Positions 2,936 to 56,477 of a stretch of DNA of 64,000 nt are shown one piece after another. The position numbers were made by a program, and so were the translations under genes. Every line of letters begins with the position of its first letter. The first letter of the stretch is position 1. The notes below the pieces were generated by a model. It was not told the DNA's origin, ran no database searches, and saw only the letters and a program-made list of their open reading frames with translations. The DNA is from Xestospongia bergquistia. Lineage: Eukaryota; Porifera; Demospongiae; Haplosclerida; Petrosiidae. The stretch is taken from assembly GCA_963965975.1 (NCBI GenBank), contig OZ014411.1:20240446-20304445 (forward strand), in the 5' to 3' direction.

Positions 2936-4120
2936 ACAGCCATGCTCATGAAACAGGAGGTGATGACAAGGTACTGTGATGTTAGAAAGCATAAAAAACT
3001 GCTTAATGAGAGAAGCTACAGTTTTGTTTGATTTTAAAGAATTTGTTGTTATTAATAAATTGTAATTAATTTTTATGTATTATTATTATTTACTCAATAG
3101 AAATTGTCAAGTGCCCTTAATTCATTACGTGAAGAATTGAAGAAAGAGTTATCTGATTAGGAATCTAAGGTCTGAATAACATTCTTTAATATTAATTGTT
3201 CATTTTGCTACACAGTGAAGTACTTGGACTCCTATCACCAGTAAAATAATAAATATCATTATGATGTGATCATTAACTTAAGTGTGTTGATCGTCAAATT
3301 AGTTGTTTTCTCATTAGTTTAGGCCAAAAGCAATTACAGTTAACCTTTCTGTGAATTACATTGGATGAGTACCTTAGCAAAAAAGAGTCTTTAAGAACTG
3401 TCACTTTGTTGATGACACACTATGCACTATGGTGAATTATTGCCACACCTCTAGGTATCAAAATACAGCATTATAATTTTATGTTAACAAGTTCACGATG
3501 CCAGAATGGCATATTAATATTTCTGTAATTACCTACTGCTGTGACAAGTGGTTTGCACTTTAGTGATTTTCATTGTTTTTGTTATTCACTTAACAGATAT
3601 TGTCAAGTGACATTAAATCATTACGTAAGGAATTAAGCAGTTGTCTGACTCATTATGTGAGCAAACGAAGAAGGAGTTATCTGTGTTCAAATCTAAGGTA
3701 TATAAGTAACTATATTATATTTGACAATAATTTATGATTCATTTGGTTACATAGTGGAGTACTTGGCTCCCATCACCTGCGATTTTATAAACATTTCTGT
3801 ATCTTCTCCCGGGAACAACATCAGTATTTGATCTGAACTCTGTCAATGTGCCAGATACAGCTACAGAAGTACTTGTGTATGTTCATGTTAACTCTGGTTG
3901 GGTTGCTGAATCACCAATATTTGCACAGATAGAAAGTTACTCTGATCCTGAACATTCATTGCCACTGTTTGTTTGTGGTTTCAAGCAAGCAGCCATGTCT
4001 TATAATTCTGAAAATATGTGGTTACCAATTGGAGAAAAAAGGAATCTGTGTGGAAAGTACATTGGTAAACCAATTTCTACAAACACAGCCGTTCTGTTTA
4101 CGATCATTGGATATTGGTAA
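2936..4120 (+). pseudogene. Broken family copy B
   Basis: This looks like two overlapping broken copies. An exon-2-like piece ends at 2971. An exon 3 at 3101-3169 has good splice borders but an in-frame TAG at 3158-3160. A stub of exon 4 follows near 3217, with its first Trp codon changed to TGA. A second exon 3 at 3597-3697 is 101 nt instead of 99, which shifts the frame. The full-length exon 4 at 3755-4120 has a 1-base loss near 3769 and a compensating 1-base gain near 3810, which puts a stop in between. The last 90 codons (from 3848) remain open and well conserved, so decay is recent. No exon 1 was found. Confidence 0.75.
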
Positions 4121-4984: not shown

Positions 4985-6290
4985 CCCTGAAAAACATAAT
5001 ATTACATTTCAAGGTATTTTTCTCAAGAAAGTAATTAAGACAATTCACGCTTTACAATATCTCCAATCAAGATGTTAATATGATAATCTTTCATTCATTA
5101 AATTCTATTGACAATACCAATACAATTAATACTGTGCAGATTATATTAAGGTCTGAAAACTAGTCAGAAGTGTTTAACATTTTGCAAGTGCTAACCTTGT
5201 TCATTATGAACGCACCTAGTATCTTTAAAAAGGGAAGAGTGATGAAGAATAAAGATGATTCAAATGACATTGTAAAGAATGCAAATCAATCACTTTAGCT
5301 CCAGTTCCTACAAACAGTTCTTACGACAGTATGCCAACAAAATTTATAGTAGAGACATCAAGCTGTAATATCTTTCATTTCCAAGTGTAAAAAGGATGCA
5401 GAACATGCTAACACATAACAAACATTATCCATCTCTAGTCTATAGTTACTTTCAAGTGACAATATAGGAATAGAGCTATACATAAAAGATGGAAATGATT
5501 GTCAGTGTTAAAAGAGTATAAGCATATGCTTTTAAACTCATATAAATGCTGTACAAAATTACACTTGTGCCTAGCTTTTAATGTAGAGTCACTTTACTCA
5601 ATGATAGGATGGTAGTAACTAAAGTACAGTTATATGGAGTCATTTGACATGACCGTAACATCGTATTTGTTGATCCACATATTGTCTATATTTTTGTCCT
5701 TATATAACACAATTCAATATAAAATGTTGCAATAAGTCAATGTGTAATTGTTTAGATTGTTCACTTGTATTAAAAAGCAGCAGTTGAAATACACTTTCAG
5801 AACTGTAGCAATATTCAAACATAAACAGTAGTAAAGAGTGAAACTACATTGGTTCAACCAATGTATATGAAGTAAGTCTTCATTAAATAGTAAATCCAAT
5901 CAAACCGTCACTGACACACTCATACATTCAGTACTCTAGAAGTTACAGCAAGACATACAGTCCAATAATTCAGTTATGTATTGAAAAATGAAGTATTTTT
6001 GTTATTTTAACATATTATAGTTCATTATAATAGCTTCATTATTTTTTATGCAGAATTGAAAACAGGCATTTTCCAATTACTACAATGTATTAAGCTGAAA
6101 CAATACATTGTTTACTCTAACACAAGTAATGTAATAGAAGTGCACAAGCATTTGCAATCCCAGTTAGAAATCTATAACTTTGCACTGAAATTTTCATCAT
6201 AGCCCTTAAATTAATTAACATACACTCTCACTTCTAATGTTACTAATAGGGATAGGGAAGGAGAAGCTAGGGGAGTTCAGCTGCCCCCTC
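4985..6290 (-). pseudogene. 5' half of a family copy (C) within an inverted duplication
   Basis: Matches the reverse complement of about 18230-19560. It holds the promoter-side flank and an exon 1 at 5196-5270 (25 codons, open, with Met-to-Lys and Val-Asp-to-Met-Asn changes relative to copies A and D). Homology stops inside the would-be exon 2 near 4985. Exons 3 and 4 are missing, so it cannot make the family protein. Confidence 0.7.
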
Positions 6291-19560: not shown

Positions 19561-20195
19561 CAGAGATGCTCATGAAACAGGAGGTGATGACAAGGTACTG
19601 TTGTGTTAGTAAACTTAAAAAAAATTAATTAATAAGAGAAACTAATTTGTTTGATTTTAAAGAATTTGTTGTTATTAATATAATTTTATTATATTATTGT
19701 TATTTACTCAATAGAAATTGTCAAGTGCCCTTAATTCATTACGTGAAGAAATGAAGAAAAAGCTATCTGATTTAGAATCTAAGGTCTGAATAACATTCAT
19801 TAATATTAATTGTTCATTTTGCTACACAGTGGAGTACTTGGACTCCTATCACTAGTGATTTTATGAACATTTCTGCATCTTTTCCGGGTAAACCATCAAT
19901 AATTGATCTGGCCACTCTTAATATACCAGATACAGCTTTACAAGTGCTTGTGTATGTTCAGGCTACCACAAGTTGGATTACTGATTATGAAGGGTCTGCA
20001 AAAATAGAACTTTACTCTGATCCTAAACATCCATTGGAAATGTATGTTTATGCTCGCAAGCAATCAGCCAACTCTTACAATTCTGAAAATGTATGGCTAC
20101 CAATTGGAGAAAAAAGAAATGTGACCGGAAGGTACATTGGTCAAAGTATTTCTGAACACATAAATATTCACTTTAAGATCATTGGATATCGATAA
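19266..20195 (+). CDS. Small membrane-anchored coiled-coil protein, family copy D (unknown function)
   Basis: Intact member of the same family as 258-1750, here on the plus strand. Exons 19266-19340, 19547-19594, 19715-19783 and 19830-20195, all phase 0 with GT-AG borders, give 185 residues. Order: hydrophobic anchor (1-25, LFFITLPFLMILGAFIV), polar hinge (26-41), short coiled coil (42-64), conserved C-terminal domain (65-185) with the SYNSENVWLPIGEKRN motif and terminal FKIIGYR. An AATAAA lies about 50 bases after the stop (20245-20250). Function and fold are unknown. The invariant Ser-Tyr-Asn-Ser and Trp-Leu-Pro-Ile core suggests a folded domain kept by selection. Confidence 0.78.
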
Positions 20196-23506: not shown

Positions 23507-24835
23507 TTATCGATGTCCTACTACCTTAAATTGAATCCTGACGTTACCACTAGTAGCTTTACCATCATATTTACCAAATACACTTGGCTGTTCAATAGGT
23601 AGCCATATACTTTTTGAGTTATAAGACCATGCATCTTGCTTATATGTGTGTAAAAGAAGTTGCTTTTTATGGTTAGGGCTTGAATATATATGGATCCTTC
23701 CACTTGTGTCTACTGTACAGGTACCAGTTTCAATTTCAACATAAACAAGCACTTGTTTAGCTGTCTTGGGTACACCAACTGATTCGAGATTGATTGCTGC
23801 TATTTTCTCTGGAACAGACGTTACAATGGTAGAGAATAAACTTGTTATAGGAGTCCAAGTGCTCATCTCAATAAAGAAAGAGAAGATAAAGATCCCATAT
23901 GATAGTGTTACCTACTGACTACCTTTGATTCAAGGATTGACAAGTCTTGCTTCATGGAGGTCTTAAACTCACTAATAGTCTGATCAACTTTCTTCATGTA
24001 CACCAACTTCTGTTGAAAAAGTCCCTTTTATTAAATGAGAAGTTTACTACCTACTTGCTCATGATCTTCTCTGTGCTTTTGACTTGTAGTCTTCATATGC
24101 TCCGATAATGATAAAATGCTACTTGACAAATTCTATTTAGCATACAAGTAAAAAGATGTGTAATCTTTTTGACAACTACTACAATTTCTTACTGCTGTTT
24201 TTTCAGCAATGAAAGCACCTACTTCTCTTAAAGTTGTATCCTTGTATTCTGAAAAGTCAGCAAGTATCTAAAACATTGTGAGATGTTTATTAAAAATACA
24301 AGATGGATTATACTTTATTAATACTAATGCTTGTATTCTCTGTCAGGTTAAGTATCATAGTCTGGAATCAATGAAACATTAGTTATTAAACAATTTAAAA
24401 TTCTGGCACTTACTTGTAGATGGTGAGTGTCTAACTCTAATCTCTAATAAGGAAATAAACAGAATACAATACTTTCATTTGAACTATATATTAATTGTTA
24501 TCTCGAAATAATCTGTAACAGTTTTATCATTACATTTGTTGTCTCAACAATTAGATTATCTACTGTTTTCTTGTACAGAGAAAGGTCTAGCAATATCTAA
24601 TAAAATTTATGGAAGCAAGTTTAACAATGCTCATTGTACCTCATCAAATCTAGTATTAATCTTTTGTTCCAAATCTTCTATCATCTGCAAAGAATATTAC
24701 TTAATGAATCAGATCAAATAATCAAAATATAGTAAACACCTTTGACACTTTAGCATCAATTTGTAACTGAACAGCTTCACTATCAATATGTGAACCCTGT
24801 ATAAAAAGCAAATACATAGCACAAGAATTCTCCAT
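23507..24835 (-). CDS. Longer coiled-coil member of the same family (copy E)
   Basis: Seven exons on the minus strand, all phase 0: 24740-24796 (possibly to an ATG at 24835), 24640-24684, 24414-24443, 24193-24267, 24055-24132, 23923-24009 and 23507-23866. The last exon starts M-S-T-W-T-P-I and carries the family domain (WSYNSKSIWLPI, GKYDGKA, terminal FKVVGHR). The upstream exons are short, polar and heptad-like, so the stalk is much longer than in copies A and D. If the ATG at 24835 is used the protein has 256 residues and lacks the clear anchor segment. The first bases of the 24740 exon also sit after a good acceptor, so a further 5' exon is possible. An LTR element is inserted about 500 bp upstream. 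Confidence 0.65.
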
Positions 24836-25549: not shown

Positions 25550-26244
25550 GTGGGTGAATTTGACACGAAACTCGAAAGCTGGGAGCAGTATGCAGAGAGA
25601 CTTGGTCACTTCCTAGAAGCAAACAGTATTAAAGACACTACCAAAAGAAGGTCAGTGTTCCTATCAGTCATAGGGCCGACCACCTACAAGGTGCTAGCTA
25701 GTTTAATCACACCAGAAAAACCAAGAGACAAGGACTACGAGAACTAGTAAAAGTTCTCAAAGAGCATCATAACCCTACTCCATCAGAGATCGTTAAGAGA
25801 TACAAGTTTCACACTAGAACACGGCAACCAAGCGAAACAACAACACAGTTCGTAGCAGAGCTGAGAGCACTCGCTCAGTATTGTAATTTTGGAGCTTCAT
25901 TGACCGACTTACTTAGAGATCGCATTGTATGTGGAATTAATGATGATCACGTTCAAAGAAGACTCCTTTCGGAAAAGGCACTTACATTTGAAAAAGCCTT
26001 GGAGCTAGCAGTGAGTTTAGAGACTGCAAGGAAAAATGTCTCAGAATTGCAGGGGACTGCAATGCCACAAGCTGTACATCAAATTGCAAATCACGCATGC
26101 TACCATTGCGGGAGAGGAGGACACCAACCGGACAAATGCAGATTCAAGCAAGCTAAGTGTCTCAGTTGTGGTAAAGTTGGCCAAATCCAAAGAGTTTGCA
26201 GAACCGCCCCCAAACCAGACAAGACCACCCCAAAGAAATATTGA
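25550..26244 (+). pseudogene. gag (capsid and nucleocapsid) with a frameshift
   Basis: The capsid-like part reads from about 25550 and is interrupted near 25735-25747 by a one-base change that forces a stop. The rest continues in another frame through 25900-26244. It ends in two zinc knuckles. The first (26098-26139) is a proper CX2CX4HX4C. The second (26158-26199) has Gln where the His should be, so its zinc binding is doubtful. Confidence 0.85.
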
Positions 26245-28229
26245 GACCACAAGCCTCAGTCCATCAAGCAACTCTCTGGGAAAAAAGAGGAGCCTATATT
26301 GAACTCTTTTTAAACCATTTTGGTGAGGACAATAATGCTATACAATTGACTGTTTATATTGAAGGGAAACCTGTACTTATGGAACTAGACACAGGAGCTT
26401 CTGTCTCCATTCTCTCATCATCAACCTGGACTAAACTGTTCCCAGGACAAGAGTTAAAAAGGACTAACACAGTACTTAAAACATTCTCAGGGGAGCAACT
26501 TCAACCAATTGGCAGTGCTGATATTAAAGTTCAGTACAAATCTCAATCTGTCACCTTACCCATAGTAGTGCTGGAAGGTGAAGGACCTGACTTATTTGAA
26601 CGAAATTGGCTGAAACACATCTGGATCGACTGGCAGAGTATGCATCAAGTAGAGGAGGACAAATTGCACACAATGTGGGCGGCTCATCACAAAAAAATAT
26701 TTCAAGAGGGATTAGGAAAAGTGAAAGATTTCAAAGCAAAGATTCATGTCGAGGCAGATGCTACTCCAAAGTTCTGTAAAGCACGACCAGTACCCTACTC
26801 AATGAAAGTAAAAATAGAAGAAGAATTGGACAGATTATTATCATTAGGTATATTAAAGCCAGTACAATTTTCTGAGTGGGCTACGCCAATTGTACCCGTC
26901 TTGAAATCAGACGGTTCAGTGAGGATTTGTGGTGATTTTAAGGTCACTGTCAATCCAGTGGCTAAATTGGATCGCTACCCTATCCCTTGTATAGAAGACC
27001 TTCTGGCAACGCTCGGAGGAGGTAAATCGTTTACAAAACTAGATACGAGTCAAGCATATCAACAAGTCGAATTAGAGGAATCATCAAAGAAGTTTACAGT
27101 TATAAATACACACAAAGGGTTATTTGAGTACACCCTATTACCATTTGGCATCTCTTCTGCACCTGCTATATTTCAACGGGTGATAGAGGGACTTCTCCAA
27201 AATATTCCAGAAGTTGTTGTCTATATTGATGATATCTTAATTACAGGCAAGACAGATGAAGACCATTTACAGTCATTAGAGACAGTACCGAAACGAATGG
27301 AGGATGCTGGGATGTTATTAAAGAAAGACAAGTGTTGTTTTATGACTAAGTCAGTATCATACCTTGGGTATATCATTGATGCAGAGGGTTTACACCCTAC
27401 TAAAAAGGAGCTACAGGCTATTCGAGATGCTCCCAGCCCTAAAAACTTAACTCAACTGAAGTCATATTTAGGACTGCTATCATATTATGGCAGATTTTTA
27501 CCTAATTTGTCAAATGTTCTTTTTCCTTTATATAGGTTACTCAGAAGGCAAACTCCATGGACATGGTCGAAAACAGAAGAAGAAATGTTTCAGAACTCTA
27601 AGAAACTTTTGATGTCATCCAAGCTACTAGTCCATTTTGACCAATCTCTAGAGCTAATATTAGCATGTGATGCCTCCAACTACGGTATTGGAGCTGTTCT
27701 GGCACATCGTCTACCAGACGGGTCGGAGAAACCTATAGGTTTTGCATCTCGTACTCTCACAGAAACCGAGAAACGGTATTCTCAATTGGAAAAGGAAGGA
27801 CTAGCCTGCACATTTGGAATTAAAAAGTTTCATTCATATCTATTTGGACATCCCTTTACTATTTACACAGATAACTTACCTTTGAAGTCGCTCTTTTGTG
27901 AGAAGCAAGCTGTACCCGCACAAAGTGCAGGACGAATTCAGAGATGGGCACTGATTCTCGCAAATTATGAGTACAAGATATTATTTCGCCCAACACATAA
28001 GCATAGTTATGCTAATGCTCTTAGTAGATTACCAAGTCCTACAACGTCAGTGGAAGAACCGGTACCAACAGAACTAATATTATTAATGGAAGCAATAGAG
28101 AAGATCCCAATTACTGGAGAAAGTATCAAGGATTGGACACAGAAGGATCCAACCTTATCGCGCATCTACAAGTATATACAAAATGGCTGGCCAAACCTGT
28201 GTCCAGAAGAGCTGAAACAATTTGTATAA
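26196..28229 (+). pseudogene. pol: protease, reverse transcriptase, RNase H
   Basis: Open frame of 677 codons overlapping the gag end in the -1 frame, consistent with programmed frameshifting. The aspartic protease motif DTGA is at 26388-26399. The RT catalytic YIDD is at 27222-27233. The RNase H region follows with LACDASNYGIGAVLA and YTDNLPLK. A TAA at 28227-28229 cuts it off from the in-frame integrase, so the polyprotein is broken. Confidence 0.92.
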
Positions 28230-29344
28230 TGGAAGTCAGAGCTATCAACCTTGAATGGTTGTATATTATTCGGCTCAAGGGTCTTAGTACCACCACCAGG
28301 GAGGAAGCAGCTGTTGTTGGAGTTACACCAGGGACATTCAGGAATCAGCAGAATGAAAAGTCTTGCACGAATGTATCTTTGGTGGCCTGGAATGGACTCA
28401 GAGATAGAGAAATTAGTAAAAGAATGTTCTAAATGCCAAGAGAACCAGAGGGATGTACCATCAGTACCTCTGAAACCATGGTCTTGGCTGAGTAGACCAT
28501 GGAATAGACTACACATCGACTACGTGGGTCCATTTATGAACTTCATGTTTTGCTCATTATTGATGCCCATTCAAAGTGGGTGGAGATATTTAAAACCTCT
28601 TCAACTATGTCAGCTGCCACTATTCAGTTGTTAAGAGGCACATTCGCTAGATTTGGTATTCCTCAAACTATCGTGTCAGATAATGGTAGTTGCTTCACAA
28701 GTAGTGAATTTGAGGAGTTTCTCAAGCTCAATGGCATTACTCATTTATTGACAGCATCGTACCATCCTCATTCAAATGGCCTGGCTGAAAGAATGGTTCA
28801 AGCTTTCAAAGGTGGAATGAAAAAATTATCTGAAGGTACCATAGACTTGAAATTAGCTAGATTCTTATTTAACTATCAAATAACGCCTCAAAGTACCACA
28901 GGCATGTCTCCCTCAGAGTTAATGTTTGGCAGACAATTACACACTCGTTTTGATTTATTACAACCTCAGTTGAACTCTAAAGTTTTAAAAAAACAGCAGA
29001 AACAAAAGCAATCATTTGATAGACATACTAAAAATAGAGATTTTGTTATTGGTGATATTGTGTATGTACGCAACTTCTCAAAAGAGAGTCATGTTAAATG
29101 GATACCTGGTACTGTTGTAGAACGTTGTGGAAATGTTACTTTCATCATACATCTAGAAGATTCAAATAGTTATGTAAAAAGGCACAAGAATCAAATGCGT
29201 CAACGTATGTCTGATTACTTTCCAGAGATTGAAGTCTCGCTTGACCAAACGCCTCCACCAGTGACACATTCTGACAATGCAAGAAGATATCCAACTAGAA
29301 ACAGACAACCTCCTCAGCATTTTGCTGAAGAATCTTGGGATTAA
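28230..29344 (+). pseudogene. Integrase with a frameshift
   Basis: Same frame as pol up to about 28548: an HHCC zinc-binding region (about 28320-28440) and the first catalytic Asp within HIDYVGP. A one-base loss in a T-run near 28547-28551 moves the rest to another frame, where the second Asp (VSDNGS) and the Glu (NGLAERM) are found. The C-terminal part runs to 29344. No chromodomain seen. Confidence 0.88.
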
Positions 29345-30380: not shown

Positions 30381-31911
30381 CCCTTTCATCTAACAAAATG
30401 TACAAATGTCCCATTTCATCTAAAAACTAATAAGTTAAATAAATTGATACTATCTTTCAAGATATTTCACCACCTTTACTAGCCTTGAATCTATATTTCT
30501 TTGATTTCTAAGACCATGCCTTTGAGTTGTTAGGACTGTTCTATAAAGTTCCTTTGATTTCTAAGACAATAACCTTTGACTTGTTAAGATTCTTCCATTA
30601 AAACTAGCTTAAGCTTGAGGAGTGCTCTCAATGTAGAATCCATTCTCACTAGCAGCAATGGAAAATATTTCTACAACCAGAGGAGATCGATCACTTTTAC
30701 ATCAGGGATACAGGTATATGCTCAACCAAAGAACTCCAGATGGGCAGATGTATTGGAGATGCCAAGACAGAAGTTGCCCAAGAAGAGGAGGTGTCACAGA
30801 CACCAATGATCAGTTTGTCACCTGTAATAACAAGCACTCTTACCCTCCCTCCCCCAACACAACTAAAAGAACTATGGAGCTAGTGAAGGAGAAAATGAGA
30901 AGAAGGCAAAGTAAGAAGCAACCTTAATTCCACAGATTTATCATCAAGCACTGAAGGAAGTAGCCTAGTATGAGAATTGGGGGAATGTTGCTGCTATTCT
31001 ACCGACATTTCTTCAGTGCAGTTAGTTTCTACAGAAAGTGCCTTAAGAGATTGCCTCCACTTCCATGTTCTACAGATGACTTAACTTTGATGGAGAATGG
31101 TCCAAAACCCTGAATGGAGAAGATTTCATGGTAGCATCCAGAGATAGTGTTTTTATGTTTTCCACCAACACTAATCTTGTTCTTATCTCAGAGGCCCCTG
31201 TCCTCTGCTGGGATGGAACTTTCAGATCTGTCCTCATTTATTTTAGCTGGTGTTCATGCTACATGCCTTTAAGTATGGACAGCAATTTGCACTGGTCTCA
31301 TTTTTGGTACAAGCAAGAACTGAGAAGCATACAATACAAGATTTAACTTGCTTAAGGAGGCAGCACAAAATATAGGCATTGATGTGGACCCCCACGGGGT
31401 GCTGACAGACTTGAACTAGCTTTACAGCAGTCTGTTGCTATCTGCTTCCCACAAGCTAACAGGAAGGAGTGCCTCTTCCACTACACACAGGCTATTTGGG
31501 CTTTGTACCACCTATGTTCATGAGTGTGGCATGTAGAAAATTGGAAGGGGATGCTCCAGTGTTTTGTAAAAGAGATGACTTCTTCCAGTACTTCCAGAGC
31601 ACACGAATTAATAGCAACTATCCCATCTGTATGTGGAATGTTTCTTCCCTGAATAGTCCCCACCCTTATACAATAATTATGAGCACTCTAAAGTATGGAA
31701 GCTTGCTGTGAAAGAGCATCCCAATATTTATGAAGTTTCGTCACCCTCTTCAAATTTCAATTGGTTGAATTGTTTTATGTATGTATTATAAATTGTTTGA
31801 TGATGTAAAAGTTATGGTACTATTTCATTTCCATGAAAATTACTTATTTCAATTTTAGACAAAATGAGACATTTGTATATTTTGTTAGATGAAATGAGGT
31901 TAGATGAGAGG
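30381..31911 (+). mobile_element. Decayed FLYWCH/MULE DNA transposon
   Basis: Inverted terminal repeats of about 45 bp: 30381-30426 (with TTTCATCTAACAAAATG) and the reverse complement at about 31853-31911. The right end holds an extra internal copy of the TTTCATCTAAC unit. Inside are a FLYWCH finger and pieces of a MULE transposase. I could not find a convincing 9-bp target duplication, so the exact ends are uncertain. Confidence 0.65.
30658..31780 (+). pseudogene. FLYWCH finger + MULE transposase fragments
   Basis: 30658-30927 codes a FLYWCH-type zinc finger (GYRYMLNQ, YWRCQDRSCPRRGG, then NKHSYPPS). From 31128 a different frame gives a transposase-like DGTFRS motif preceded by FSTNTNLVLISEAPV. 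Downstream parts (about 31340-31780) are in several frames with stops. Not functional. Confidence 0.65.
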
Positions 31912-45651: not shown

Positions 45652-48600
45652 TTAAATATCTAAACCAAGTTGTAGCAAATCATGTTCATTAAACTGATCT
45701 TGCTCTTGTGGTTTGCAAACCCATATTCCCATTCCATGCTCTTGGCTATACTGATATAGCAACGACTTTGCGTGTTGGAAAATAGTGGCCTTTGATTTAG
45801 CTTCATGATATGAAAGTGAATCATGTAGATCATCATTACCCATTAATTTGCTTAAAGACAGAAAATGAGAATACAGTTGTGCTTTGCATACTTGTGACAA
45901 AGCATATGATGAAGATACAGGACGACCTGTTGTTCCATCTGTAACTTCAGGCTTGTCATCATTAATAACCCAGTTCATGCAGTAACTGGAGGTTTTTTCC
46001 ACANNNNNNNNNNNNNNNNNNNNNNNNNNNNNNNNNNNNNNNNNNNNNNNNNNNNNNNNNNNNNNNNNNNNNNNNNNNNNNNNNNNNNNNNNNNNNNNNN
46101 NNNNNNNNNNNNNNNNNNNNNNNNNNNNNNNNNNNNNNNNNNNNNNNNNNNNNNNNNNNNNNNNNNNNNNNNNNNNNNNNNNNNNNNNNNNNNNNNNNNN
46201 NNNCCTCCTTCCATTTTGGTCCTGAAGACACCTTGTACTTTTGTTGCCATTGTTGGAAGATGAGAACAATCTGGTGGTGGTTCACGATTTCGTGCATCTT
46301 CTCTAGAAAACTGAGCACCATCACCACATGGTGCTGTACTTATGTAAAGATGAAATTTGATCGAGTCCTTAACACCTACATAATTCTTGACACTTTCATC
46401 AGAATCAAAAATGGTCTCAACACTTTCACCATGTTCGTAAAAGTTGCAAAGCTCTTGGTAAAAGAATCTGACCAAGCCTCGACGGGCCAAAATTTCAGCA
46501 TGAGAATCATTAACAACATCACCTTTTAAACTCATTTTGTCTCCTGTTATACAACGTGTACCACTGCCAAATGATACCACATCCATTTGTCCAGTTTCTG
46601 TATCCTCCATAATAAAACAAGCAATAACTTTACGTCCAGGCTGTGGCATATCTACAGCAGCCTCTAATCTAGCATACAATCCATGAGCTAAAGTAGCAAT
46701 ATGATCTTGAAACTCTGTGTTGACATCACTTTCAAGAGAGTTATGTGAGGGTTGTACTAGATTGTGTCCTGTTCGTATTATAGTGCTGGCTCGTACAGTC
46801 TGAAGAGCTAAATCAGCTGCCATTCTTCTGGCTTCCTTCTTATTAGTAGCTTCTGCTTCAAACCTGTATGTTCCAAAAATGGCTGCAACAACAAAATGTT
46901 TCAGATGAGGAGGACCATACTCACGAACAACAGGAAATTCCAAAGTCAACTTGTGAGCTTGACAATACTCACTAAGTGCACTGACAGGATTGCGATTCAA
47001 CTCATTGACAATTGAAGCATTGACATGTCCACTATCTTGAACTGGAAGTAGTTGAGGACTATCAATTTTGGGATTAGATATGATCTCATGTCTACTGCTT
47101 TCATCAAGTACTTCTTGATTAGAGTCTGATGTACTTTGATCTTGGTTTGACATTGCTAATGAACTAGACTCTAAGTTAGGGTTTCCAGGTATTCCCCATA
47201 ATGGTGGATTACTTTCATTAAGTGAACATATTGCTCCTTGACATTCTAATTCTTGAAGGTATTCTTCAACATCACTTGGTTCACCTGCATGAAATAAAGA
47301 AGACAGTAGAAGAATATCAAAAAACAATTAAAATCACTTCATGTATGGTAGTATGGCAATGTTTAATTACCAATAGCTTTGCTATGTTTTTTATGAAGGT
47401 ATTCAGTAATACTTTGTGAACTCATCAACTCAGTTCTTGATTGCAACAGAGAAATGATCTCTCCTGGTATGCTCTCAACATTTGTCTAAGAAATAAAGAA
47501 ATAAAAGGTAAAATCACCACATTGTTACATATATTTACAAACACGCAAGTTTGTTAATAAATTTTTACACAAGATCAAATTTTGCAATCTATTTCTGTCT
47601 ATCAAGTTTAATTCCTCCTGATGTAGTCTTTCATATTATTTATTTTTGTGCAATGTTGGTTTTGTGGATTTTGATCATCTTTGTACTATCTTTAAAGAAT
47701 GGACGGCACTTTAAAAGCATGATTCAAAGTACTATCATATTTTTATTATAACAAACATAATTTGTACTATCACTTCAAACAATCAATGACATGGAACTCA
47801 AGAAGAGGTCAGAAGACTAACACTACAGTGACTTTCCAAGACAATAGTAGAAACATTTACAATCCTTTTTTGTTTTTTGATTATAACTACAAGATGTAAG
47901 AAGATAGTTGATGGTTTAACAGAGAAGCTAAAAGGATGAATGAAGACTTGTATGGAAAAGGCATTTCACAACTTATCAGTTAATTTCATTTATTGTTTCT
48001 CTATATTGAAGAATTATTTTTTATGATGAAATTGTTCAGAGTGATAGGATTAAAACAGATATTAAGTGATACTGGCCAATACAAACTAATCCAATAGATG
48101 GCTAGGTTGAAAATGACAATTAACATATAGTATTTTAAGAGGTGTAAAACCTCATAAAGGTAAATGACTAATTTTAGAGTGGGAGGCAAAACGGTGACAT
48201 TCACTTTCTATTTCAAGGAAACAAATTTACCACAACAAAATGATATTAGAAATGGGTTTAACCTTCTTTCAGACATCCTTATTATATACCTCTAACTGTT
48301 AGAGACAATTCCTCATATCGTTCCTGACAATGTGACGAAGTACAATACAGTTGAACAACACTAAAGGGATTTATGACTTATTTCTTCTATATTGAAATAA
48401 AGCCGTGAAAGCAGCACTAGGTGAGTGAACCTTCGATTGAATTGGCTTAAACTCAGGTCAAGGATCACATTGCGTGAAACAGCCATCACTTTAATCTGCT
48501 TAGGTAGAATGACTTGCATAAGCTTTAAGGAGGTTCATTGGTCTAATTTAGTTCGACATATTGGTGACATCTGCAAAGGGACAACTAATGGTGGATTAAT

Positions 48601-51600
48601 GGTCTCACAGAATACTTCAGTGCTGGAATTCAAAACTCATGGCAATGGTGACAATTCAAATAAAGGCTGTGACAAAGGTTTCATAGGATCATTTGTACAC
48701 TAACTTGAAGTTTTTTGCTTTGACGCTTTATTGATGTGGTGCTTATTTAAAGTACACAACCTCACATGACTTATATATGATTATTGCTCTTGCTTGAGTT
48801 TACCTACTTTAGTAATATTTCCTTTGTTTCTTTAATACATTGCTAATAAAATTGTTAAGTGAGACTTGTAAGAGCATTTTTAAAGATTGTGTCACCAAAA
48901 ATGAAATGCACATTGTGCTCCAATAAATGTTGCCACTGTGGAGGAATAACTAAACTCAGATACTGTCTCACAGTGAAACACTCTCTCATTTAAACTTTCA
49001 GATAAACCATAAAAAAACAGAGACTACTAGTAAGGAACAAGAATGTTCAAAAAATAGGAGCCTTGAGATTTCTGAATTCATGGCATATTGATTGTAAAGG
49101 ATATAAGGTCCATGAACATTTTAGAAAGCAACAGGCTGTTAGAATACCTAGAACTAAGTGTAGCTTTTCAGCAACATGTTCACATAAATGCACATGAAGT
49201 TGAGAAATTGAAATTGCTGTAACCTAGACACTAGCTTTGATTAATAATATTTAGACCAGATCATGAGCAGGTCAGGTGTGTTACAGCCAGTTCATTACTT
49301 TGTCCAAATTGGAGTAACCTGTATTGATAACACCAACATTTCCCAAATACCACACTATGAAGGAGATAGCAGATAAATAGAGACAAATGACTGGGAAAGG
49401 GAGGTCACAACTATAGTCCATAACCAGGCACCATATATGTAACAGACCTCTCTTATACGGGATGCGAAGTGCTTGAATATCTGAAGTGCTCATCATATTG
49501 TCTTCAGCTGTTTCAAACATGGCTTGTAAGTAAGAACAATTGATACTTGCAGATTGTTGCAAGCCTGTTGGTCCTATTGATTATAGTGTTGTTATTGTGG
49601 AAGCTCTTAAACACAAATATGCATATATGAAGATAACTAGTGCTTATACAAGGTTGTTGCATATCTGATCAACCCCAGGATTTGAAGTCAGAACTGAGGA
49701 AACTAGCTCAAGAGTTTGTTAAGATATTGAGCCCTTTTAAGTTGTAACTACTTTCTTTGAGAATTTTTTCTATATCTTCCTTTACTAATGAATCAACCAT
49801 GAAAGAATCTACAGGTGACTTACTAACCATTAAACAGTTGAAGATAGTAACAGAGGAGATACAGCAGATGTGGTAATTCGATGCACTGTATAACCATGCA
49901 GTATTTTAGAGTTGTGTATTGGATACTAGATTTAAGTTTTTGGACAAGGTCAAGCATGACTTACACGTGTACATGAGTGGAATGGATTGGTTCATACTAC
50001 CAGTAGTTCTGGATCACCTAATGATGCAGTTATAGAGGTAGTTGGAGATTCAGAGCGAGAATTTACCGAATTAAACCAGTCAAGGCATTGGATGATTTTC
50101 TTGGTCCAGAAGGGAGTTTCAATAAAACTATTACTACAGCTAAAGAACTTCTGACTGAGGTATTAGCTTCACAAGAAAAGAAGTCCTATTGAAATTTGTT
50201 ATTATGTTACTTTTCTCTCTACTTAACACAATGACGACAGAATTTAAAAGTATATTATACCATACCAGATATTTTTGCTATACCAGACAAATTGTCTTTT
50301 GTGGTTTACCCCATCCTATACAAAGACACCTCACCAATCCTGTTATTATATATGCTGATTAGCAGTAGGCATAGTAGACAAACATGTTGAAGGCTTGAAT
50401 TTTTCAGGGCAGACCTTTAAAGGTAAAACCTTGCATTATTTTCAGTCTTAATTCAAATGAATCTGGAAGACATCAATCTAACACACCAATTTAAATCTTA
50501 CTTCTGAGTCATTTAAAACAATTCTAAGCTTCGAACATCCTGATAATAGTACACTTTGTCTCGGCATCCAGAGTTTGTCTAAAAAAACACATGCTTCTGA
50601 CAGTGCTTTAGTGTTACAATAGCTTGTGCGAGTAAACTTGTTCATTGCTTTTTGGTAAAGCAAATCTTGATGATCTAGGATTGTACAAGCAAATAAAATT
50701 CATTGCTTGTCACCTGTATCAGCACTTGAAGATTGTAGTTGAGTTTTATTCATTGCTTTAAATTGTTAGATACAACAATAAAATAAACTATGTGAATGGA
50801 TGTAACAATGTAATCGAAAACAATCATAGAACTGTCAGGCAGTAAAATATAAAAGTGTTAACATTGTAAAAACCATAACTAAAACACAGAAAATGCAAAT
50901 AACAAGTCTCCATATTCAGTAGACAAATATATGTACATTTAATACCCATTAGAAAGTTAGAAAGGTAAACAACTTTTATAAGCTACATTCTTTTTTTGTA
51001 AACGTTTCTTAGCTATTGAAGTTAAACACATTGTGACTGATCAGTCATTGCATAGCTAAACTAGTTAGTTTATTGACTGCGTAACAAGTGCATTTACTGA
51101 TGGAACATGTAGAAGTTGCAGGTGTTAAAAGGAATTCCTTTTAGTAGTAGTTTACTTTGTATTAAAAAAATGCTGTGTCTAGGTAGCCGGTACCGGCTAC
51201 TAACATTTCAAACTTATATAGCCGGCCGAGTGAATAAAGGGTTAATATTCGTAAATTTAACCCCCCCACACCCCACACCAGCTGTAATAATGGCTCTGAA
51301 ACATGTGTCTTCATCTCTTGTTGACCAAAAGACTCAAGACGATGTATCTTTTTCTGTTGGTGACCAATTTCATAGCTACCAGGAACTTGAGATCAAAATA
51401 AACGTCTTCCAAGAAAAGAATGGAGTGTAGCTATGGAAAAGTGACTCTAGGACCATTACAGCAGCTGCTAGACGATCCAATAAGGTGATTAAGCAGAGTT
51501 TAGTGTACTCTGAACTACGCTTCTGCTGTATAAATGGAGGGAAAAAGTACAATGGCAAAGGAAAAGGAATTCGGAAAACTTCGTAAGTATGTACACGTGG

Positions 51601-54600
51601 TCTGATTGGGAGTGGTTTTGATTTTTGATTGGGCAGAGTATACTGTGACATATATACAGAAACTAACATTCTTTGTCTTTAATTGATTTGTTTCTTACAG
51701 GACATTTTGACAAAAATGTCCATTCAGAGTTAACCTCAGAGTAAATGAAGCTGGGGCAGCATTAGTAGTGCGGAGTGTTTGTCCTGATCATAATCATACA
51801 GTTTCAAAGGTGATTTCATTAGTTTATGGCAATGATAGTGTATCATTACCTAATGCAGGTGCTTTTCAAGCATTTGCCCAGACAAAGATCTCTCAGAGAA
51901 AGACAAAGAAAATACAAAAAATTACTTGAGTTGCGAGCTAACAAAAAATTGATCCGACAGCAACTTACTCAAGAGAGTGGAAAAATTGTTTTGCTGAAGG
52001 ATATATCCAACATAGCTTCACAGGCAAAAGAAGGAAAATCTCGTAATGACCTTACTGCTATGGTAAAAGATCTGATAGAGCAGTATGGTAAGTATATCTA
52101 TACTGAATGGTTCAATATTTTCTGTTGTTTTAGGGGCACAAGTGGCTGTGCTAGTCGATGACAACAAAGCTTTGCGTGGGTTGTTTTTCCAAGATCAGTC
52201 AATGATTGACACTTTCAATGCATACCCAGAAATCATCTTTGTTGATGCCACATACAAACTCCTCGAATTGTCCCTTCCAGTATTTTTGATCCTTTGTGAA
52301 GATTCTAATGGCTGCAGTGAGGTAGTTGGTGTGTGCCTATTAGTGTGTGAAGACTTGGAGAGTATGAAATGGATGATGGAAACATTCAAACAACACAACC
52401 CAAGATCATCAGATATTCGAATTGTCATGTCAGATAAAGATATTAAAGAATGAGATGCTTTTAAAAGTTGCCTTCCCAATGTTAGGACATTAATCTGCCT
52501 GTTCCACACATTAAAATCATTTCGTGTGAAAAAATGGGAATTACAAAGTGTGAATGAGAATTTTGCTTAGAACTATTGCATGATGAAATCTAATCCTGTG
52601 TGGTATTGCAGGCAATGTTCTGGAAGAATTGATGACAACACTGAAGAGTCTATTGTTTGTGATTCATGCCTAAATTGGAACCATTTTGATTGTGCCACCA
52701 TAAAAACAAGGCCTAAATGTAAATTTTGGTTTTGCTCATCTTGTAACAAGCAAAAGCATTTGTGACTTAATAGTTTAAATAGTGAAGTGTTAAAACCTGT
52801 TGCTTAAACTTGGTCGGGTGTGAGGGTTAAAAATATGAATCACGTTTCAGAGCCATTATTACAGCTGGTGTGGGGTGTGGGAGGTTAAATTTATGAATAT
52901 TAACCCTTTATTCACTCGGCCAGCTATATAAGTTTGAAATGTTAGTACTTAGTAGCCTATACCGGCTACCTAGACACAGCGTTAAAAAAAGTAAATTGAC
53001 AAGACAAAACTGCTTATGACAATTACTAGGTACAGTAATAAATATTTAGATGGTGTAACTGCACTATTTTTGTTGTATACTCTGTTCAGATTGAGTTTGA
53101 CCAGTGAATTTATATTATATCTCAAGCTAGGATATGCTAGAAAAAATGGTTAGCATCACTCAATCATAACAGTACTAAAATATCCATAAACTGTAGCAAT
53201 ATCTTTACAGGAAGTAAAAAAAATCCCATATAAAGTGAATATACTTTAGGTTAAGAATAAACACTAACTCATTGACATAATTTAGACAAGGAAAGAGCTA
53301 GAATGGTTTGTACTATTCAAAATGCCTTGCAAATCCAAAAATTTTATCCAAACTCTAGAGACCTAGCTAATTAGGAAAGTCACAAACCAGAAATCCCACA
53401 TAAAAGTGAATGGTATTCTTCAAATTTTACCATGACCAATATCATGCATAGACTGCTCAAGCAAACTCTTATCAGCTACAAAGAAAAGCTCAGAAACTGT
53501 TAGATTTACTTTTTATAATTTAATATGATAGATTAAGAAGATATAGCAACAAAGAACCACAAAAAGCTTTGGTATGACTCACCAAAAATTTTGCAAGTAC
53601 AACACCAAAATTTAATGCTGATATAATTGAAATCCCAATAAACCACAGTCATTGCTAATAGAGTATAACATTATTTTGAGTTCTAAAGTGACATCTGTCT
53701 TGAACAGTTTGCATATTATTAACAGATGTTTGTATGTGTGCTCTGCAACTGCAACAAAAACATTTGAAATGTCTTATAAAACATAAAACTATGAATCAGG
53801 GTAAAACGTCTCAAGACTTGCAAAGAAGTTTCAATATACAAAGCCACATCCATATTTTGCTAATGACAAAGCTTGATCATTATCATTACTGAAATTCCAA
53901 AACCATAAGTCAAACTCAATGTGAACAGAGTATAGTTTAATTTAGAAATGATTAATAACAAAAGTGGAAGTCTTAGGTAGGGTTAGCATCTGGTATGACT
54001 TGATTAGTGCACATATAACATACATACTTGCCTGACATAAAATCAATCTCATATTGATCTTAGACTCTATTATCTGATCTTATAGCTTTTGCAAAGGTCT
54101 GTTGAGACATTCTTCAACAAACACTCAATACTACCATTTAAGACTACCTTGTATGGTCCTCAATTGACTTGTGAATAGAACACCTCTATTGACAAGTCTA
54201 TTGAAGACTGAGCAGGAAAATTAAAAACTATGGTTTTTGGCCAACACACTATTATTTGAATTAATGTCACAATAATTATTACTTTAACATTACAAAAAGT
54301 GAACTCACCTCAAGATCAGATAATACATGTGAGTCACTCAAACTGCCAGGAGAAGGGGTATGCTGACTTTCCAATAACCTGCGATAGACGTCAGCTCCTC
54401 GACCAACTGATTTAGTCTTAACTATCTCTGGCTCTTGTTGTCTCAAGACCCAAGTAGGAGGACCACTACCTCTAAAACTAGTAACCAAATGCTCCTTTTC
54501 TAATTGATAAAGAATGCTGTTGGCTTGATGACGAGATATTCCTGTCTTTGCGGCTAAAGCAGATGCTTTCTGAGGGTGTTCTAGATTTTCTTTAAGGACT

Positions 54601-55367
54601 TGAAGAATTTTATGTCGATCCACTTCAGTTGATTGTTGGTTATCTCTGTATGATTTATGAGAAGATGGGTTTACTGATGTATGGGAAAACCTAGGGTACA
54701 TCCCTTCATGAGAATGTGAACTTTGGCCATGCAATGGAAAAGGTGAAGTATGTTTTTGAACAGACATTGATGATTTTGATTTAACTGTTTTTGAAGAACG
54801 AGAGGCTAATTCCCAGCGAACATTACTACCAGGCTTGATAATACGCCGTAACAAGCCATTTTTTTCCATGGCTGCCAATTCAGAATTTACAGCAACAGCA
54901 CCACGAAGACCTGCAACTTTAGCAAGCTCAGTGGCAGTTTTTGGACTAGAACTGTGAAGAAGTGTTTCAAGAATATGCGTCTGAATTTCACTTGTTGTGG
55001 AACTAGAAGCAGAAGGCTTCGGTGATATAGACCGACTCCTAGCTGTTGATGGAAAATGAATTTCTTGATCTCGACCACTTGGAGAGTAGGGACTTGGTCC
55101 ACTTGCATGTCCACCAAAAGAGGATCGATCACGGCCACGATGAAAACTGTCTCGACTGGAAGGTCCTGACAGCCCACTAGGTATAGAGGTCCATGATGGA
55201 GGTGACTCAGATACTTTTCTCACCCTTCCTTGTCTCTCCAAAGCATATAAGCATCTGTTAATATCCTTACGCGTATAGCCTGGTCCAACAGCTCGCACAA
55301 TTTCTTGTGTTGTGAATTCACGACCAGAAAGGAGACCAGGAAGGTTTAACGAGAGCTCCTCATCCAT
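45652..55367 (-). CDS. ADAR-type adenosine deaminase with four Z-alpha-like domains
   Basis: Deaminates adenosine to inosine in double-stranded RNA. Exons 54309-55367, 47371-47485 and 45652-47284 have matching phases (0, then 1). The last is broken by an assembly gap at 46004-46203. Exon 1 (353 residues) has three winged helices: residues 5-62 (R33 K34 N37 R38 Y41 and P56 P57 W59, canonical), 127-188 (Tyr position Ala, no Pro pair, degenerate) and 249-308 (N283 Y287 and P303 P304 W306, canonical), joined by Ser/Arg/Pro linkers. Exon 2 plus the start of exon 3 make a fourth (358-422), which keeps PPLW but lost the Asn and Tyr. One dsRNA-binding domain lies at about 489-555. The deaminase has HAE (H653, E655) and PCG (C711). 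The gap hides the second zinc-binding Cys. The C-terminal part after the gap (MNWVIND ... DGTTGRPVSS ... GIWVCKPQEQ) fits ADAR. The start at 55367 is preferred; an in-frame ATG at 55454 would add 29 residues. Confidence 0.88.
46004..46203. other. Assembly gap (200 N) inside the deaminase domain
   Basis: Exactly 200 N. Comparison with the ADAR deaminase layout suggests roughly 110-120 residues (about 350 bases) are missing between the two open parts. The reading frames on either side also disagree, so 200 is a nominal length and not a measured one. Confidence 0.95.
47486..49559. other. ADAR intron, 3' part: nothing recognised
   Basis: Part of the 6.8-kb intron between 47486 and 54308. Short open frames at 48425-48703 (+) and 49281-49562 (-) have no recognisable motif. 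Confidence 0.4.
49560..50200 (+). mobile_element. Probable hAT transposase remnant in the ADAR intron
   Basis: Near 49915-49970 one frame reads VLDTRFKFLDKVKHDL, close to the 'LDPRFK' signature of hAT transposases, and near 50085-50200 another reads LDDFLGPEGSF and KELLTEVLASQEKK. Stops separate the pieces. Very decayed. Confidence 0.4.
51171..52981 (+). mobile_element. MULE-like DNA transposon with PHD finger, 9-bp target duplication
   Basis: Complete element of 1811 bp in the ADAR intron. Terminal inverted repeats of about 140 bp (51171-51310 and 52835-52981) start with GCTGTGTCTAGGTAGCCGG. An exact 9-base direct repeat, TTAAAAAAA, flanks it at 51162-51170 and 52982-52990, as expected for Mutator-like insertion. 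The coding content is described in the pseudogene entry. The internal deletion suggests a non-autonomous copy. Confidence 0.85.
51291..52765 (+). pseudogene. ZSWIM-like MULE transposase with a C-terminal PHD finger
   Basis: Pieces in order: an N-terminal domain from 51291 (MALKHVSSSLVD ... FSVGDQFHSYQELE), with a stop at 51428 and a continuation (RFCCINGGKKYNGKGKGIR); a Lys/Arg-rich helical part at 51870-52085; a transposase core at 52130-52453 with FVDATYKLLELSLP and VMSDKD, two likely catalytic Asp; then LICLFHTLKSF near 52490. After about 52570 the frame resumes directly in a PHD-type finger at 52580-52765 (CRQC, CDSC, HFDC, CSSC spacing). The C-terminal transposase and any SWIM finger are missing between them. 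Several stops and shifts are present. Confidence 0.7.
52991..54308. other. ADAR intron, 5' part
   Basis: AT-rich intron sequence. A pair of inverted words of about 25 bp (about 53075-53100 and 53909-53935, TATACTCTGTTCA...) may mark the ends of an old 860-bp MITE. Nothing else recognised. Confidence 0.35.
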
Positions 55368-55484
55368 ATTTGTCAACCACGAGTAACAATTAAACCACAC
55401 CTCTTGTTTTAACGCCCCATTAATAGAGGTAGTCTTTGTACTAAGACGGAACACCTACCTACCTTTGCGTAGCTCGAGACTACA
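55368..55484. promoter_or_regulatory. Shared bidirectional promoter of the Z-alpha gene pair
   Basis: Only 117 bases separate the ADAR-like start codon (minus, 55367) from the start codon of the tandem Z-alpha gene (plus, 55485). There is no space for two separate promoters unless they overlap. No TATA box is seen; the sequence is less AT-rich than its surroundings. If the longer ADAR start at 55454 is used, only 30 bases remain. Confidence 0.65.
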
Positions 55485-56477
55485 ATGGATGAACAGATTA
55501 GATCTTTTTTGCGAGATGCTGGTAAACCCACAACTGCTCAAGATATTAGTAAAGGAATAAAAAAGACAAAGAAAGAAGTAAATCAAATTATTTATAAAAT
55601 GAGCGATGTCGAAAAGATAGAGGATAAACCGCCTAAATGGATGTTAAGGGGAGGTGCCTCCTCCACAGTTACTGTGTCTACCCCACCACTTGAAGTATCT
55701 CCCTCAGTGATTGATCCCACCACTGGGATGTCACCAGATGGTGCATCATCAACCACTTCTTCAGCATCTGATGAGTTACTGAAACAGAAAATAAGAGCTG
55801 TTTTAAATGAAAGTGGCACTACACCACTGACAGCCCCGCAGTTAGCAAGAAAACTTAATGACTCATTGATAAAGATGGTAGATGTTAAAAGACTTCTTTA
55901 TGATATAGCAACCAATGTAGCTTCTAAAGGACAAAAGCCTATGTGGATATTACCTGAAAACAATACCAGTGGGGTGGCTACTCTTGATCTTCCTGTTCAA
56001 CTTGCTGGCAAGCCGCTTTTTGTTAAAGAAGAAAATGATGATCAAATTATTTTTACCAAAGTTAAAGACAGTGATATTGCTGTTCCAACAATAGGTACAG
56101 CTAAAGAAGATGAAACAGAGAAAGACGGCATTGGAAATCCCAGTGATCAGTGTAGTAATGATAGCAAACTACAAAATGAAGATGTCTCAGATGAAGTAAA
56201 ATCAAAGCCAAAGTTAAAGCCTGGTGTACAATTAGCAGCTAATTTTAACGGACTCCAAATCAACAATATTGATTCCTCACCACTAGATGAAGAGGCCCTT
56301 AAGACAAAAGTCCAACAATTTCTTAGTGATCATTCAGAAGATAGTTTCTTAGCAAAGGACATTGCAACAGGGGTGGGAGCACCTGCTCGTCATAAGGTCA
56401 TGGTTTGCCTAGACCAACTAGTTGAAAGCGGATTTGCAGAGAAACTTAATGATGAAAGATACAAGTTATCTAAGTAA
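55485..56477 (+). CDS. Tandem winged-helix (Z-alpha) protein, Z-DNA/Z-RNA binding
   Basis: Single open frame of 330 residues, no intron needed. Domain 1 (residues 2-55) is a canonical Z-alpha fold by sequence: K29 K30 E31 V32 N33 and Y37 on the recognition helix, and P49 P50 K51 W52 in the wing. These are the residues known in the ADAR1/ZBP1 family to hold left-handed Z-form DNA or RNA. Domain 2 (about 98-161) keeps the Tyr and the final Trp but not the Asn or Pro pair. Domain 3 (about 268-330) keeps only the fold pattern. Linkers are Ser/Thr-rich (56-97) and acidic (162-267). No dsRBD, deaminase, kinase, RHIM or nuclease was seen. It lies head-to-head with the ADAR-like gene, whose first domain resembles its own. 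Likely a competitor or sensor for the same RNA; that role is inference. Confidence 0.85.
   Translation: MDEQIRSFLRDAGKPTTAQDISKGIKKTKKEVNQIIYKMSDVEKIEDKPPKWMLRGGASSTVTVSTPPLEVSPSVIDPTTGMSPDGASSTTSSASDELLKQKIRAVLNESGTTPLTAPQLARKLNDSLIKMVDVKRLLYDIATNVASKGQKPMWILPENNTSGVATLDLPVQLAGKPLFVKEENDDQIIFTKVKDSDIAVPTIGTAKEDETEKDGIGNPSDQCSNDSKLQNEDVSDEVKSKPKLKPGVQLAANFNGLQINNIDSSPLDEEALKTKVQQFLSDHSEDSFLAKDIATGVGAPARHKVMVCLDQLVESGFAEKLNDERYKLSK

Follow-up and report, generated by a model that had tools for sequence, protein, structure and literature searches.

In the genome of the sponge Xestospongia bergquistia, a gene for a predicted ADAR1-type RNA editor and a conserved gene for a protein with tandem Z-alpha-type domains lie divergently across a 117-bp spacer. 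Both are located in a stretch of 64,000 nucleotides (the window), which is part of contig C1 in a genome of 146 Mb and 21 contigs. We call the second gene, on the plus strand, TZ; judged by its relatives, it is one member of a family whose proteins carry Z-alpha-type domains in tandem. In vertebrates, ADAR1 and ZBP1 compete for Z-RNA, and the age of this antagonism is an open question in the field. The interpretation that we favor, and to which we give slightly less than an even chance, is that TZ is an effector-less binder of Z-RNA or Z-DNA that is made together with ADAR and competes for or buffers the ligands of another sensor, perhaps the product of a paralogous gene on contig C7, while ADAR edits and destabilizes these ligands. 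If this is true, the editor would not have been alone near the base of the animals but accompanied by a dedicated binder and perhaps by a Z-alpha-linked RNase; alternatively, the same Z-RNA logic would have arisen twice.

The predicted ADAR gene

The start codons of the two genes (55367 on the minus strand for ADAR and 55485 on the plus strand for TZ) lie 118 bp apart on either side of the 117-bp spacer, in agreement with the sequence-only reading, which had described two divergent genes at this distance. That reading had also taken one of the two genes for an RNA-editing enzyme with Z-alpha domains, which is borne out by the Pfam matches of the minus-strand gene product to z-alpha (2.4e-19, in three stretches of exon 1), dsrm (1.9e-10), and A_deamin (3.5e-31 and 2.6e-18). 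The gene model consists of three exons that join in one frame up to a run of 200 N within the deaminase, and its first intron is 6.8 kb long (Table 1). Over these in-frame predicted exons, Pfam finds Z-alpha, a double-stranded RNA-binding domain (dsRBD), and a deaminase in one gene, the combination expected of an ADAR1-like enzyme. The A_deamin match leaves off at model position 98 and picks up at 228, and because the approximately 130 missing model positions need more bases than 200, the N run is perhaps an assembly gap of set length.

The essential Z-alpha residues of ADAR1 are N173, Y177, P192, P193, and W195 (PMC11298590), and their equivalents are found in the ADAR winged helices a1 and a3 as well as in TZ domain 1. 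We read scans of single domains at E up to 1, the curated cut-off of the Pfam z-alpha family being 21 bits. Scanned alone, a1 and a3 match z-alpha at 8.9e-8 and 1.4e-6, respectively, and a2, which lacks the Y and the PP, reaches 16.6 bits, below the cut-off. The fourth winged-helix-like domain, split by an intron, ends in NPPLW, lacks the N and the Y, and gave no Pfam z-alpha match when scanned alone. We read the gene as that of an ADAR1-type editor in which two of four winged-helix-type domains are canonical Z-alpha. The five contact residues of a1 are invariant in 3/3 sequences, and two relatives of exon 1, P0008 and P0009, are 95% and 87% identical to it. In a phmmer search of the PDB, exon 1 matched ADAR1 best (2.4e-4) and ZBP1 weakly.

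The ADAR1 of Amphimedon queenslandica is reported to have three ZB, one dsRB, and one AD domain (PMC4323055), and the gene described here likewise combines several Z-alpha domains with one dsRBD and one deaminase. In the same survey by Grice and Degnan (2015; PMC4323055), the number of ZB domains in sponge ADAR1-like genes ranges from one to three, and Z-alpha is reported in ADAR from Porifera on (Herbert 2024, PMC11293857). Our gene is a further example of this published kind, although only two of its four winged-helix-type domains are canonical.

The TZ protein and its relatives

The whole TZ protein matches Pfam z-alpha at 8.9e-12, with two stretches reported when E values as high as 1 are admitted, and domain 1 alone matches at 1.1e-9 (38.6 bits), so that the first domains of both proteins are Z-alpha by profile hidden Markov model. 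Among PDB chains (phmmer), domain 1 is closest to ADAR1 Z-alpha (2acj, E = 2.1e-4), with ZBP1 next, and its five contact residues are invariant in 7/7 aligned sequences. Domain 2 has lysines in place of the N and the first P and retains the Y, the second P, and the W, all five positions again being invariant in 7/7. It lacks the canonical residue set and, scanned alone, does not match Pfam z-alpha (E <= 1); its descent from Z-alpha is nevertheless supported by 52% identity to domain 2 of the C7 paralogue. A segment of 24 residues (window positions 56007-56078) follows domain 2. Domain 3 alone did not match any Pfam family (E <= 1) and lacks the N/Y/PP/W pattern; it is predicted to be helical at low confidence and may be a winged helix. 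The claim that both genes encode canonical Z-alpha domains stands for ADAR a1 and a3 and for TZ domain 1 and fails for TZ domains 2 and 3; TZ is thus a tandem Z-alpha protein by descent, with only its first domain canonical.

A protein search with TZ returned seven entries, comprising the window's own protein and six relatives that are 67-88% identical, and two more, P0010 and P0011, came from a profile search; both also keep the Z-contact residues of domain 1. TZ is thus a genuine gene that has been conserved. A ten-sequence tree separates TZ, P0002, P0003, and P0004, all of which have the third domain, from P0005, P0006, P0007, P0010, and P0011 with a support of 0.964, and the long branch of the C7 paralogue groups with the latter side (0.945). 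The third domain was not seen in any of these five relatives, and its absence may partly reflect truncation, several relatives being fragments. Upstream of TZ, 10/14 in-frame codons translate like the leader of P0003, compared with at most 7/14 elsewhere in the window across all six frames. Since the leader matches in frame despite a stop codon in the window, this 5' flank is conserved as DNA. For P0007 and P0011, the longest contig has the same length, 987,789 bases, which suggests that a related species carries a pair of TZ-like genes on a single contig; the two sequences appear shortened or out of frame compared with TZ. The longest contigs listed for TZ relatives (14487, 11588, 9790, 4182, 3441, and 987789 bases) and for ADAR relatives (13891 and 24892 bases) have no length in common, a comparison that speaks neither for nor against linkage of the two genes there.

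The relatives also bear on the origin of the gene. A recent inverted local duplication of the ADAR Z-alpha exon, with TZ as its by-product, would fit the adjacency of the two genes, the MDE with which both proteins begin, and the fact that each packs two or three winged-helix-type domains into a single exon, but we consider it very improbable. TZ domain 1 is only 30% identical to ADAR a1, as against 37% to human ADAR1 Z-alpha and 49% to the C7 paralogue, and only three inverted repeats (14-18 nt, 81-86%) were found between the ADAR and TZ genes. Moreover, TZ has relatives with 75-88% identity along its full length and is therefore older than their split. No sign supporting a recent copy of TZ from ADAR was found, and the domain identities and sparse inverted repeats disfavor it.

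Table 1. Positions of the features described (window coordinates unless a contig is named)
Feature	Position	Strand	Description
TZ gene	55485..56477	+	Single exon, 330 aa; no catalytic or signaling domain by Pfam
TZ domain 1	55491..55646	+	Canonical Z-alpha; N33, Y37, P49, P50, W52
TZ domain 2	55764..55961	+	Z-alpha-derived; K135 for N, K151 for first P; Y139, P152, W154 kept
Segment GKPLFVKEENDDQIIFTKVKDSDI	56007..56078	+	Recognizable in most TZ relatives and in the C7 paralogue
TZ domain 3	56283..56474	+	Predicted helical, low confidence; present in P0002, P0003, P0004
TZ 5' flank	55443..55484	+	Conserved with P0003; stop codon in the window
Divergent spacer ADAR/TZ	55368..55484	.	117 bp; 5 CpG; CpG observed/expected 1.05
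ADAR exon 1	54309..55367	-	353 aa; three winged-helix domains; donor gtgagt
ADAR winged helix a1	55176..55367	-	Canonical Z-alpha; N37, Y41, P56, P57, W59
ADAR winged helix a2	54798..54992	-	Z-alpha-like
ADAR winged helix a3	54435..54632	-	Canonical Z-alpha; N283, Y287, P303, P304, W306
ADAR exon 2	47371..47485	-	With exon 3 encodes fourth winged-helix-like domain; from splice sites and frame
ADAR exon 3	45652..47284	-	dsRBD and deaminase; down to stop at 45652
ADAR dsRBD	46800..46988	-	Pfam dsrm
ADAR deaminase, N-terminal part	46281..46574	-	A_deamin (3.5e-31), model 1-98; HAE and PCG motifs read
ADAR deaminase, C-terminal part	45709..45996	-	A_deamin (2.6e-18), model 228-329
C7 locus L019	G000:C7:2083700-2093600	-	Z-alpha frame 5007-5798; kinase-RNase 3577-367

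A paralogue on contig C7 beside a kinase-RNase

With TZ as the query, a second gene was found at G000:C7:2088742-2089473 on the minus strand (48% identity), which had been absent from the first profile search. Its frame of 263 amino acids, counted from its ATG, matches Pfam z-alpha at 1.5e-9 in two stretches, and both of its Z-alpha domains keep the N and the Y by eye. Compared pairwise with TZ, domains 1 and 2 are 49% and 52% identical, and domain 2 of the C7 protein alone scores 21.5 bits, just above the z-alpha cut-off. At least three Z-alpha loci (ADAR, TZ, and C7) are therefore present in the genome, two of them neighbors. While Pfam confirms both members of the couple proposed from the sequence as Z-alpha genes, Z-alpha is not confined to that couple, a third gene being located on C7.

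Approximately 1.4 kb downstream of the C7 Z-alpha frame and on the same strand, ten exons with AG/GT borders join into 414 amino acids that match Pkinase (4.8e-40) and Ribonuc_2-5A (8.6e-34) in Pfam and IRE1 in the PDB (5hgi, E = 5.2e-97 over residues 8-392). The kinase keeps HRD, its DFG reads DCD, and the RNase motif RNKKSH fits the Rx4-6H motif described in PMC3710099. Both candidate acceptors of the kinase exon (positions 3577 and 3559 of the locus) fit a phase-1 donor, and the tail of the Z-alpha frame offers phase-1 GT sites with middling scores at 5173, 5128, 5035, and 5014; a peptide similar to the one at 5035 is kept in P0006. None of ten short frames lying between the Z-alpha frame and the kinase matched Pfam. 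The kinase could alternatively be a separate gene that begins at its own ATG (3575), with an in-frame stop four codons upstream of it.

The kinase-KEN module resembles those of RNase L and IRE1, apart from the DCD and the Z-alpha frame upstream. In RNase L and IRE1, ankyrin repeats or a luminal domain take this upstream place. Should the predicted splice be real, two Z-alpha domains joined to a kinase would also recall PKZ, the Z-alpha kinase of fish; however, the kinase beside the C7 frame is of the IRE1 type with an RNase domain and not an eIF2-alpha kinase, and TZ has no kinase by Pfam. Genome-wide, 11 KEN-domain matches were found, two of which are the C7 gene, with the others on C12, C4, and C5. 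By eye, the kinase start exon follows a phase-1 intron in the three readable genes (L034 on C5, L036 on C4, and L037 on C12), and no match to that exon was found in the C5 loci L035, L038, and L039. Several KEN-domain matches are clustered on C5 (G000, 7735800-7844300; L034, L035, L038, and L039), and of the five matches on that contig, two have stops within them. Other domain frames precede two of the KEN-domain matches: a Death domain (Pfam 3.9e-5) in one case on C5 and leucine-rich repeats (LRR_6, 1.5e-9) in the case on C4 (L036).

Possible roles of TZ

We propose that ADAR, with its two canonical Z-alpha domains, would bind and edit Z-prone double-stranded RNA and that this editing would destabilize Z-RNA and Z-DNA ligands. 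TZ, which would be produced together with ADAR from a shared promoter region, would compete for or buffer the ligands that the C7 product or another sensor reads and thereby damp sensing, and the two proteins would set the sensing threshold from two sides. Competition or buffering seems the likeliest role by analogy, because effector-less Z-alpha proteins of viruses, such as Vaccinia E3, antagonize Z-RNA sensing. Like these, TZ is a Z-alpha protein with no effector; it differs from Vaccinia E3 in being a host gene and in having no dsRBD by Pfam. Going further, a complete Z-nucleic-acid circuit in an early animal would comprise the ADAR editor, the paired TZ decoy, and a sensor-executioner of Z-alpha and IRE1/RNase L type on C7, a proposal that we put forward tentatively and think rather doubtful as a whole. 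As TZ and the C7 gene are paralogues, the decoy would in that case be the binding half of the Z-alpha-kinase-RNase sensor, without its RNase, produced with the editor.

Several observations weigh against the interpretation that we favor. The ADAR deaminase is partly N, and of the motifs HAE, PCG, and SCSD, which we take to be the catalytic ones, the first two are visible and the third falls outside the readable part. The N contact is gone from TZ domain 2 in 7/7 sequences, which suggests that TZ may bind with one domain only. A structure prediction of both proteins had been suggested as a check, and the AlphaFold model of TZ is poor (predicted local distance difference test score 44.5) and does not show the wing, so that domain 1 carries the N173/Y177/P192/P193/W195 residue set by sequence while its fold is modeled poorly. 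At the C7 locus, no donor is outstanding, the site at 5035 being no better than 92 of 1090 GT sites, and the predicted fusion of Z-alpha with the kinase-RNase, plausible as a sensor-RNase but unproven, has about an even chance of being real. Lastly, divergent gene pairs are common in sponges such as Amphimedon.

This last point also supports the view that the neighborhood is incidental, with the spacer shared by chance in a compact genome and TZ acting as a nuclear regulator that binds Z-DNA or B-DNA and has no tie to ADAR, an explanation that we regard as possible but somewhat unlikely. Stand-alone winged helices are commonly transcription regulators, TZ domains 2 and 3 have diverged from Z-alpha, and TZ gave sub-threshold TrmB and HTH matches in Pfam. 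The finding that two of at least three Z-alpha loci in 146 Mb are neighbors speaks against chance, as does the full Z-contact set that TZ domain 1 keeps in 7/7 sequences. The CpG observed/expected ratio of the spacer compares with 0.27 across the window, and the enrichment extends beyond the spacer, with 5-7 CpG in each 200-bp bin of ADAR exon 1. In Amphimedon, 45% of genes are head-to-head, and 11,379 genes have start sites at most 1 kb apart (PMC4773876). Given how common such pairs are, the divergent layout does not by itself argue for a functional pairing; the editor/binder pairing suggested by the sequence-only reading is retained insofar as a Z-alpha editor and a Z-alpha binder do stand divergently around a short spacer.

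Rather than damping sensing, TZ could itself be a positive sensor like ZBP1, binding Z-RNA and recruiting an effector through the conserved middle segment or the third domain. It resembles ZBP1 in having tandem N-terminal Z-alpha-type domains, a long C-terminal part, and no deaminase, ZBP1 chains are among its PDB matches, and the segment after domain 2 is conserved. However, the C-terminal part has no known domain by Pfam, the second domain lacks the N, and a third domain is present. TZ has no Pfam match to RHIM (PF12721) at E <= 1, and the genome as a whole returned 0 matches to RHIM, with a weak control (1/14 control genomes matched, below the cut-off) that leaves absence unproved. In its architecture, TZ is therefore not like ZBP1, and we judge a ZBP1-like role unlikely.

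According to PMC10523160, the Z-alpha proteins identified in eukaryotes are limited to ADAR1, ZBP1, and PKZ, to which PMC11298590 adds further predicted ones, including an anthozoan protein; non-ADAR Z-alpha proteins are reported from vertebrates, some anthozoans, protists, and viruses (PMC11298590, PMC11293857). No neighboring Z-alpha gene is mentioned in the consulted parts of the survey of sponge ADARs (PMC4323055), and no paper on a Z-alpha-triggered KEN RNase, or combining "zalpha" with "KEN domain", was found in the literature searched. Both the free Z-alpha binder beside ADAR and its C7 paralogue upstream of a kinase-RNase appear to be new.

Other loci in the genome and the window

Three further deaminase loci were noted in the genome (G000:C14:4614481, C15:1574243, and C14:1054606), which we labeled from their frames: among them, one has a single dsRBD-like start and CHGE in place of HAE, one is ADAR2-like with more dsRBD-like frames, and one is tRNA-deaminase-like. 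Within the long ADAR intron, a ZSWIM/MULE transposase-type frame (3.2e-31) with a PHD finger (8.2e-6) lies antisense at 52079-52762 on the plus strand. Four frames of approximately 110-130 amino acids (264-623 and 23513-23911 on the minus strand; 3791-4117 and 19794-20192 on the plus strand) look related by eye through WSTWTPIT...NSENIWLPIGEKR and did not match any Pfam family (E <= 0.01). Ty3-type retroelement frames occupy 25702-29341 on the plus strand, with reverse transcriptase, RNase H, and protease in 26175-28226, and are followed by a FLYWCH frame at 30637-30924.

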